Shown here: positions 24,370 to 51,329 of the stretch, in pieces
Layout of the letters: each line of letters opens with the position of its first letter
Position numbering within the stretch: the stretch's first letter is position 1
Assembly: GCA_938009235.1 (NCBI GenBank)
Contig: CALLIK010000007.1
Coordinates: 62,001-126,000, forward strand
Direction of reading: 5' to 3'
DNA: 64,000 bases
DNA from: an uncultured Caulobacterales bacterium
GTDB taxonomy: Bacteria > Pseudomonadota > Alphaproteobacteria > Caulobacterales > Maricaulaceae
Translations under genes and position numbers: made by a program
Notes under the pieces: model-generated
The model's input: only the letters and a program-made list of their open reading frames with translations
Databases searched by the model: none
What the model was told of the DNA's origin: nothing

Positions 24370-24499
24370 GAAAAAGTGTGTCCTTATTTTGGATGCACCA
24401 GTCCTCCTAAATGTAGCGTTCTAGAAAACTTAATCCCCGCTTATAGAAAAACGATCTCATTCATTTTCAACCCCTTACAACAAAATCACAGAGATGCAT

Positions 24500-24900
24500 C
24501 CACGGTATCAAAACCTGTGTCATTCTAAGTCTGTTCTTTCGGACATTGGACAGGTGAGACGTCGCTTACTGGTTCCGAAGACGGTGGGGTTGAGCATCTG
24601 GCTTTGACAAGCTGGACTGTGCCGGGCCTTGATGTAATGAGCGTTGACCGCCTTATGTTACTTTGGAGTTGAGGGTAATGCCCCTCAGGAGCCTTGGGAC
24701 GTGAGACTGCGGGACCCCGAACCGTTGCATCTACAACCATCGCCGCAGGATTATGATCTGCGTAAAACAAAACACTTCTACTTCGGTATCCGTCGCGGGT
24801 ACTGATCCTGCGGGCAGTCCTGCCTAAATTGATATTCGGCAGTCACTCATGTTGAAACAGATGTTTCAACGGGGACTGCGGACCTATAAACTCGCGCTCA
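24500..24900 (-). ncRNA. Structured non-coding element R1 (inverted, diverged copy of R2)
   Basis: This part of the 570-bp gap between the SGNH and MATE genes has no convincing gene. It contains at least seven blocks that also occur, in the same order, on the opposite strand at about 50624-50966 (R2), for example 24606-24630, 24705-24725, 24779-24800 and 24584-24598. Between the blocks lie hairpins: 24851-24870 is a perfect 9-bp palindrome (GTTGAAACA / TGTTTCAAC), and 24744-24762 pairs CGCAG with CTGCG. The matching R2 hairpins have changed sequence but still pair. Strand is inferred from R2, which ends in a terminator on its plus strand. The RNA class is not recognised. Confidence 0.55.
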
Positions 24901-50469: not shown

Positions 50470-50527
50470 GGTTTCCCTTCGGGGAAACCCCCAGGGTGGC
50501 CCATTGTTATGATGGGTCACCTTTTTT
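50470..50527 (+). terminator. Tandem terminator after mscS
   Basis: Two hairpins follow the mscS stop: GGTTTCCC-TTCG-GGGAAACC at 50470-50489 and GGTGGCCCAT / ATGGGTCACC at 50495-50521, the latter followed by TTTTTT. Confidence 0.9.
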
Positions 50528-50599
50528 ATTGCGGTTTTTTAGGTGTGAGAAGAAAACAAGCGTCAACGCTAACTACCAATCGAGTGGCAGCAATAACCT

Positions 50600-51000
50600 G
50601 TATACCCCAACGCGGGTTGGGCAGTTGAATTTTCCAAGGAAAAATCAACGAGGCGGCGCGCCAAATAAATGGGACGGCCCGCAGTGTCGGCACCCGCGAC
50701 GGGACACCGAAGTAAGTAAGTTGTTTTACGCAAGTGATAACACTGCGGCAGCGGTTGTTGATGTGACGGTTGGGGGTCCCGCAGTCAGACCTGCCGACGG
50801 AAAGCCAAAACCGTAAAGTTTCAACAGACCCGGTTTAAGATCAGGCGGTCAACACTCATCACAAAAGGCCCGGCACAGTCCAACTTGTCTAGTGTAATAA
50901 TACACAATCGGATGCTCAACCCCACTGCCCTCACACGAGTAGGTGACGTCCTACCTGTCCCAATGTGAGGAACGAGTTTAAACATAGGTGGAAATCGGAG
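50600..51000 (+). ncRNA. Structured non-coding element R2 (diverged copy of R1)
   Basis: This interval has no convincing protein gene. Blocks 50691-50714, 50766-50786, 50843-50859, 50865-50889, 50911-50925 and 50940-50966 match the reverse complement of R1 in the same order. Hairpins between them, such as GTTGAATTTTCC/GGAAAAATCAAC (50624-50649), CGCA-A-GTG/CACTGCG (50729-50747) and GTAGG/CCTAC (50939-50954), keep pairing although their sequence differs from R1. A strong terminator follows at 51021-51045, which favours the plus strand. It does not match tmRNA, RNase P RNA, SRP RNA or 6S RNA as I know them. Confidence 0.6.
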
Positions 51001-51020
51001 GGCGTGGACGCGAAACGCCC

Positions 51021-51045
51021 AAAAAAGGTTCGGGGAACCTTTTTT
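51021..51045 (+). terminator. Terminator at the end of the R2 element
   Basis: A perfect 11-bp inverted repeat (AAAAAAGGTTC, GGG loop, GAACCTTTTTT) ends in T6. A GGGCG/CGCCC hairpin lies directly in front. The repeat is symmetric, so it could act on either strand. Confidence 0.85.
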
Positions 51046-51054
51046 AGTGTAGCG

Positions 51055-51075
51055 CCGAACAGCTAAGCTGTTCGG
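51055..51075. repeat. Perfect 10-bp palindrome downstream of R2
   Basis: CCGAACAGCT and AGCTGTTCGG flank a single A. It lies 10 bp after the R2 terminator and about 255 bp before the receiver gene. It could be an operator or a further RNA stem. The remaining 51076-51329 is AT-rich with no gene recognised. Confidence 0.6.
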
Positions 51076-51329
51076 ATATAATGATATTTTAGTGATGAGA
51101 AAATTTCACGGTAAAGGCCAATTTCGTCCCATAGCCGTGGACCGTTTTTTGAAACTGTGGTTTTTGGGGGGATTGGGGTAGTTTTGGGCATGGACGGGAA
51201 CGTCTCTCAAAATTAAAATATATACAGACACATCATATAAGTTAATTAGCCTCTACTTTATAAGTGTTTTTTCGAATAAGAAACCTATGTATTGAGTCAT
51301 ACAGAACCTAATATAGATAAGGCCACGCC

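Follow-up and report, generated by a model that had tools for sequence, protein, structure and literature searches.

Two intergenic regions of the window, by which we mean the whole 64,000-nucleotide stretch of DNA analysed here, appear to be copies of a new family of large RNAs. We call these regions R1 and R2. The members of this family would pair with themselves, would probably be dimeric, and would be kept diverse by recombination among the copies; judging from comparative sequence evidence, we regard this account as fairly probable. The window comes from a genome (G000) of 2.79 Mb in 16 contigs, belonging to the Litorimonas group of the Alphaproteobacteria. A preliminary description of the window had read R2 as a structured, non-coding RNA of no known class, and in these respects it is borne out; its choice of strand, and its placing of a terminator at the end of the RNA, are revised below. 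To that description we add that each genome has about 40 copies, that these are mosaics built from exchangeable modules, that their loci are held in common across species, and that one loop is nearly always self-complementary.

The likeness between R1 and R2 exceeds chance. As a query against G000, R2 produces 34 BLAST matches, which merge by hand into 31 places in the genome. R1 is one of these places (70% identity over query positions 73-367, E 2.9e-29, at G000:C7:86543-86820). The ordered blocks that had been reported as common to R2 and the reverse complement of R1 are recovered in the alignment, and the block at 50865-50889, said to be nearly unchanged, is near-identical in R1. A covariance model of the 140-nt core matches R2 at 50863-51014 on the minus strand (58.2 bits, E 1.3e-17) and R1 at 24493-24632 on the plus strand (134.5 bits, E 7.4e-43).

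The same model finds at least 23 places in G000, 11 of which are new with respect to BLAST, and so the total for this genome, combining the 31 BLAST places with these 11, is at least 42. We speak of about 40 copies, because several places sit at contig ends and are possibly halves of one copy. A copy lies at or near a contig end in each of C4, C8, C9, C10, C11, C13, C14, C15 and C16 of G000. The repeat therefore probably broke the assembly of this genome, and the copy number is uncertain to that extent. The length of a copy is roughly 450-550 nt. The features of R2 and R1 are collected in Table 1, in which the ends of R2 were set by eye, at the points where likeness among the copies stops.

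Table 1. Positions in the window of R2, R1 and the features in and around R2.
Feature	Positions	Strand	Remarks
R2, one RNA copy	50559..51012	minus	5' end near 51012, 3' end near 50559
R1, second RNA copy	24431..24898	plus	ends approximate
Terminator-like hairpin of the mechanosensitive-channel gene (gene end 50453)	50493..50523	plus	separates the gene from R2
Variable hairpin named in the preliminary description	50624..50649	minus	exchangeable 3' part of the RNA
H1 domain	50679..50748	minus	CCGCAGTGT (50679-50687) pairs with ACACTGCGG (50740-50748)
H1b, within H1		minus	CACCCGCG (50691-50698) pairs with CGCAAGTG (50729-50736)
HE1-HE3, strongest-covarying hairpin domain	50866..50924	minus	overlaps the 'unchanged' block 50865-50889
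HC, candidate homodimer kissing loop	50939..50954	minus	loop palindrome GACGTC at 50945-50950
Variable-stem hairpin, the 'terminator' of the preliminary description	51021..51045	minus	5' side of the RNA
Two overlapping promoter-like sites, weak, consensus only	51081..51115	minus	upstream of the R2 RNA

The strand of the RNA can be read from the copies in two ways. Taking the minus strand of R2 and the plus strand of R1 as the RNA strand, the cells of the core helices contain 198 G-U pairs versus 2 A-C pairs, and those of H1 and H1b contain 73 versus 8; the structure was itself drawn from the scored copies on this strand, which somewhat favours both the structure and the G-U count. The folding energies agree. 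The strand opposite to that of the preliminary description has the lower minimum free energy in 77 of 92 copies, the difference averaging 12 kcal/mol, and over 24 copies the mean fold z-score is -2.13 on the RNA strand versus -1.06 on the other, the RNA strand being the lower in 20 of the 24. The G-U excess and the fold energies therefore reverse the strand first proposed: the R2 RNA begins near 51012 and ends near 50559, and the R1 RNA extends from about 24431 to about 24898. RNAalifold finds almost no structure in the 3' domain on the strand of the preliminary description. For R2 by itself, the minus strand folds with a z-score of -2.49 (0 of 100 shuffles as stable) and the plus strand with -0.97 (20 of 100); the fold of R1 by itself is unremarkable, with z-scores of -0.84 on plus and 0.75 on minus.

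The RNA strand of the element is non-coding. Its three frames contain stop codons in 41, 39 and 43 of 43 cores. On the opposite strand stops occur in 31, 19 and 33 of the 43 cores, so that one frame is open in 24 of them, which tells somewhat against the RNA reading. When ten overlapping frames of 81-151 codons, taken from R1, R2 and other copies, are compared with Pfam at E up to 0.01, no family is found for any of them. The region at 50.6-51.05 kb, which had been said to lack a credible gene, indeed contains short overlapping frames only.

The fold of the element is supported by its homologues. The core alignment consists of 43 distinct copies over the best conserved 140 nt, with 22 pairs drawn. 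Standard pairs make up 97.9% of its 946 cells, against 82.0% in shuffles, and both sides have changed in 13 pairs, against 8.0 in shuffles; by either measure, none of 500 shuffles is as high. The covariation score of the core is 0.518, compared with 0.194 when shuffled and with at most 0.119 in controls whose partners are slid. Within the HE domain, helices 3 and 4 of the core are 98.7 and 98.8% paired, with both-side changes in 9 of 13 pairs. R2 has an extra loop insert in this domain.

In H1 and H1b together (33 copies), 96.1% of cells are standard pairs versus 85.5% in shuffles, with 0 of 500 as high; the numbers of double-change pairs (7 versus 6.5) and of pair types (20 versus 19.5) are no higher than in shuffles. 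For H1 over 77 copies, 664 of 693 cells are Watson-Crick pairs, where 200 shuffles average 533 and reach 561 at most. The comparison of homologues thus comes out in favour of pairing in the core, in H1, and in H1 with H1b. With covarying pairs in homologues and no protein family matched by the frames tested, R2 is rightly described as a structured RNA and not as a coding gene. The individual helices that had been named fare less uniformly: the hairpin GTTGAATTTTCC/GGAAAAATCAAC is present in R2 at 50624-50649, as is GTTGAAACA/TGTTTCAAC in R1, and the second example of pairing had been given the wrong partners, the true pairs being CGCAAGTG with CACCCGCG and ACACTGCGG with CCGCAGTGT.

A helix H2, which in R2 would pair 50688-50695 with 50701-50709, was tried as an alternative to H1b (50691-50698 with 50729-50736) and set aside: it is 94.1% paired, barely above shuffles (13 and 23 of 500 as high). 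H1b and H2 are mutually exclusive, and each is more than 92% paired over the 33 copies; this exclusivity may indicate a conformational switch.

Elsewhere in the element, hairpins of the type GTGCAATTT...AAATTGCAC are inserted in differing peripheral loops. For example, they occur in HC of L026, L032, L036, L117, L131 and L180, and in the middle module of L035, L036, L045, L046 and L049. From their sequences, these small hairpins look as if they had been traded between positions in the RNA.

The hairpin HC deserves separate treatment. Its stem of five pairs is 94.0% paired, with both-side changes in four of the five. Its loop is palindromic in nearly every copy, and the sequence of the palindrome varies: nine hexamers occur (GAGCTC, GACGTC, AGGCCT, AGCGCT, GGCGCC, TGATCA, GTATAC, TGTACA and ACGCGT), along with shorter cores such as GGCC. 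By a loose count, which accepts any of 15 listed palindromes near the loop, tetramers too, 138 of 142 distinct cores have one. The palindromes were also compared with shuffled hairpins, using 109 of the 144 hairpins (33 of them distinct) and leaving out the 35 of differing length. Palindromes of at least 6 lie within 1.5, 2 and 2.5 nt of the centre in 17, 23 and 25 of the 33 hairpins, respectively, a tolerance that was picked after the loops were seen; the corresponding means over 1000 shuffles are 2.7, 4.0 and 4.3, and the maxima 9, 11 and 12. For palindromes of at least 4 in the same hairpins, the counts are 22, 30 and 32, with means of 8.6, 11.9 and 12.9 and maxima of 17, 22 and 21 in 1000 shuffles. 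Because they are related by descent, the 33 hairpins cannot be counted as independent trials. In HE3, the hairpin next to HC, palindromes within 1.5 nt of the centre number 0 of 85 for a length of at least 6 and 3 of 85 for at least 4.

The HC palindrome lies mostly off the centre of its hairpin. Only 3 of 31 copies repeat the hexamer at another place in the element, and so a partner within the same molecule is unlikely. Five palindrome classes stand side by side within G000, and in matches from other genera HC holds GACGTC, ACGCGT, GTAC or ACGT. That is, the loop stays self-complementary while its sequence changes, which is the mark looked for in homo-oligomers. In the paper on OLE, ROOL and GOLLD RNAs (Nature 2025; PMC12286853), switching of a loop tetranucleotide among GGCC, GAUC and AGCU is the argument for an intermolecular kissing loop; adjacent bases, as the reasoning there goes, are unable to pair inside one chain, so the pairing is intermolecular. 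HC appears to bear the same signature from which kissing loops between molecules have been deduced for OLE and GOLLD RNA, and its loop looks made for pairing with its counterpart in another RNA molecule.

The surroundings of R2 must be read anew once the strand is reversed. The preliminary description let R2 end in a perfect terminator; this hairpin, at 51021-51045, is one of variable stem, and on the RNA strand it falls on the 5' side. Its type is seen in four copies (R2, L032, L178 and L180), whose stems differ, and only in R2 and L178 is it followed by a T run of at least 5; as a terminator it is not conserved. Among all loci examined, a strict hairpin pattern has real matches in R2 and L032 only. 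Because it is flanked by A6 and T6, the hairpin could terminate in both directions. A terminator scan around R2 lists solely the hairpin after the channel gene, its rule demanding a T-run following the stem and so omitting 51021-51045.

A promoter scan of the R2 region finds 4 promoter-like sites, 3 of them on the minus strand, versus 1.1 expected. A transcript starting from the promoter-like sites at 51081-51115 would have to pass the hairpin at 51021-51045 before reaching the R2 RNA; as this hairpin could terminate transcription, its position counts against those sites driving the RNA. The 27 bases at 51064-51090 (TAAGCTGTTCGGATATAATGATATTTT on the plus strand) recur unchanged at L178, the orthologous locus of G009, and this conserved flank is possibly a promoter. 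Neither a promoter nor an intrinsic terminator turned up that the copies have in common. Beside L022, L024, L033, L039 and L048 stands another short hairpin that recurs, of the kind GAGTGTCTTACTTGAGGCGATTTTAAGACGCTC; it lies past the element's 3' end as read on the strand of the preliminary description, and it looks like a separate intergenic repeat family.

How widely is the element distributed? We count a genome as positive at E up to 0.001 per genome, with at most 23, 8 and 8 candidates scored per genome at the levels of family, order and class, respectively. Within the genus, 13 of 18 genomes are positive, G017 by a single weak match; the other 5 are without a model match, so that the RNA is dispensable. 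One genome of the same genus as that of the window, G013, which we take as L. cladophorae, has at least 23 model matches. At the level of the family, 35 of 137 genomes match, in 7 of 19 genera (two of them via weak matches only), and eight genomes have at least 23 matches. The order yields 20 matching genomes of 398, one of which (G236) lies outside the family; the class yields 1 of 385, which is the window's own genome. G236, from another family, has four weak matches (E 8.1e-6 to 4.0e-4), a hint of an older and wider distribution. An exact-pattern scan of GTDB genomes returns, among the matches listed, only Litorimonas cladophorae and uncultured Caulobacterales. Two exact patterns find no match in viral contigs, nor does blastn with R2 in plasmids and phages.

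The positions of the copies can be compared across species by way of their neighbouring genes. We compared 109 copies from seven genome groups by their 184 neighbour proteins. In 29 pairs of copies from different species (17 groups), the same neighbour stands on the same side and the same strand; most of these matches rely on one flanking gene. A mirror-image arrangement occurs in 1 cross-species pair, and any other arrangement in 0. One locus group, beside the gene for the ribonucleotide reductase small subunit, is common to four species. In G005, G009 and G012 the element stands after the same channel gene as R2 does; after this gene in G002, G004 and G016 there is no element match (one of the two G016 loci is incomplete). 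The neighbour gene of R1 has an ortholog only in G012, where there is no element match and the following sequence differs, so that this locus gives no readable empty site.

Copies at shared loci are not, as a rule, the most alike. We scored likeness for 25 of the 29 orthologous pairs. In 9 of the 25, with one tie, the element at the orthologous locus is more alike than the other copies are on average, and in 2 of 25 (L020/L050 and L044/L057) it is closer than every other copy of the species. The content of the copies is moreover mosaic. Six segments can be delimited in 49 of the 109 copies, and 41 of these, from three genomes, were used. Among the 17 copies of G000, distances in the six segments correlate with r from -0.07 to 0.27, and the only segment pairs standing out from permutations are S4-S5 (4/300) and S0-S4 (16/300). 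In 27 of the 136 pairs of copies in this genome, one segment is near-identical and another strongly different. L. cladophorae, with 13 of 45 pairs among its 10 copies, and G010, with 35 of 91 pairs among its 14 copies, show a like pattern; some of their segments are linked (r reaching 0.52 and 0.48, respectively). We infer that the loci are probably inherited vertically, with gene conversion between the copies. The pattern points to concerted evolution, at loci common to several species, of an RNA family other than the ribosomal one.

The main rival to an RNA family at inherited loci is an origin as a mobile element. On this account the element would be a selfish, non-autonomous one, an RNA or hairpin repeat that was spread by an enzyme supplied in trans and is now mostly immobile, and its structure would serve mobility and not the cell. 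We consider this somewhat unlikely, and some of our observations accord with it: there are about 40 dispersed intergenic copies in all four neighbour arrangements (25, 19, 16 and 15 of the 75 copies with both neighbours), and the element is lineage-restricted, 5 of 18 genomes of its own genus being among those where the model finds nothing. Multicopy motifs of inconsistent orientation are classed in PMC11109978 as mobile or repeat candidates; many inconsistently oriented copies are indeed what we find. Pfam searches of 20 of the 184 neighbour proteins, beside 12 copies, assign a family to 14, with 0 transposases or integrases.

Genome-wide searches for enzymes covered TnpB, IscB-type proteins and reverse transcriptase. 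TnpB, including its zinc ribbon, is found in 0 of 18 genus genomes, controls being positive in 6 of 14; the IscB-type search gives 0 of 18, with controls also silent; and reverse transcriptase is found in 6 of 18, the window's own genome included, and not in G013. The loci and orientations common across species, by 29 to 1, likewise speak against a mobile repeat, as does the lack of matches in phages, plasmids and viral contigs. Taken together, the shared loci, the neighbours without transposase, the missing TnpB and the scarce reverse transcriptase tell against mobility that is still going on; an origin as a mobile element is compatible with them.

The arrangement of neighbours also bears on regulation in cis. 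The genes beside the copies are ordinary and varied. Among 40 loci there is no recurring neighbour family apart from orthologous loci and paralogous pairs. We rejected a riboswitch or leader, for which the element has no consistent place upstream of a related gene; the four arrangements and the varied neighbours speak for RNAs that are independent of the adjacent genes, and against a leader role.

A further possibility is that the element acts at the level of DNA, its palindromes and hairpins being sites of protein binding or recombination, with no RNA acting. Palindromic hexamers could bind dimeric proteins, and the mosaic copies resemble bacterial mosaic repeats such as REP/BIME. The excess of G-U over A-C suggests instead selection on one strand as RNA, and a palindrome that is usually off-centre and comes as nine hexamers is unlike the site of a single protein; we therefore think this reading improbable. 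Least probable of all, to the point where we would be surprised by it, is a guide-type RNA (OMEGA or HEARO) or an intron or retron RNA whose protein partner is encoded elsewhere: the many copies and a size near that of HEARO (343 nt; PMC12286853) fit such an RNA, but there is no Rfam match beyond chance level, TnpB in 0 of 18 genomes tells against OMEGA (TnpB) RNA, and 12 of the 18 genus genomes have no reverse transcriptase match, G013 among those without, which tells against group II intron or retron RNA.

Returning to a family of self-pairing RNAs, we envisage the following. Each copy would be transcribed as a stable non-coding RNA. Two molecules with the same palindrome would then pair through the kissing loop of HC, the palindrome setting the specificity, and each genome would thereby hold several types of RNA homodimer of distinct specificity. 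Homologous recombination among the copies, in the form of gene conversion, would keep the core alike and re-deal the loop alleles. As for the role of the homodimer, a scaffold or an RNP platform, by analogy with OLE, seems likelier than regulation in cis, because the neighbouring genes and orientations are arbitrary.

A bolder version, which we offer tentatively as a possibility, is that the cell makes dozens of kindred RNAs, whose exchangeable palindromic loops sort them into several types of homodimer, and that recombination among fixed loci re-deals the loops and the peripheral domains, the core being under selection. Such a self-sorting repertoire of homodimers, if true, would amount to an RNA system encoded by many genes whose products recognise their own kind. 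We know of no precedent for one. The comparative support for this large RNA family is strong, and one of its carriers, L. cladophorae KCTC 23968, is a marine species that is named and in culture. The palindrome switching of the element would be a case, independent of the published ones, of this mark of RNA homodimers, with several specificities in a single genome. Why bacteria keep large self-assembling RNAs becomes testable in this way.

It remains to place the element among known systems. At the gathering score, Rfam has 0 matches in the entire 64-kb window. R2 has none at E up to 5, R1 has two at chance level only (E 0.42 and 1.7), and six further loci have none. With nothing above chance, the preliminary claim that this is no common RNA holds good. 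Nor did we find the element described, among the matches listed, in the literature on large noncoding or ornate RNAs, on Caulobacterales, Litorimonas and Robiginitomaculaceae, or on concerted evolution of intergenic repeats.

REP/BIME are mosaic intergenic repeats, dispersed copies of recombining blocks, as the element is; it is far larger than they are, its core of several helices is conserved, and its G-U pairs are specific to one strand. HEARO and OMEGA RNAs can be multicopy, and so can the element, which differs from them in having no nuclease gene among the neighbours tested and no Rfam model match. HEARO (PMC12286853) and the element are both large structured RNAs. The mobile or repeat sequence candidates (MRSC) of PMC11109978 are similarly multicopy and inconsistent in orientation to flanking genes, whereas the element keeps position and orientation across species, has no transposase among the tested neighbours, and has a multi-domain fold of about 0.5 kb.

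The closest comparison is with OLE, GOLLD and ROOL. The element is not assigned to any of these, as there is no match to their Rfam covariance models, and it has so far been found in one order of Alphaproteobacteria only. It differs from them further by its roughly 40 diverging copies per genome, by several coexisting palindromes, and by the shuffling of modules; to our knowledge, copy number and shuffling of this degree are not known from ornate self-assembling RNAs. As described in PMC12286853, these RNAs are like the element in being large, covarying and non-coding, with a symmetric loop that switches palindromes. On the evidence of sequence, then, this is apparently an uncatalogued RNA family, which would work in the manner of the ornate self-assembling RNAs.
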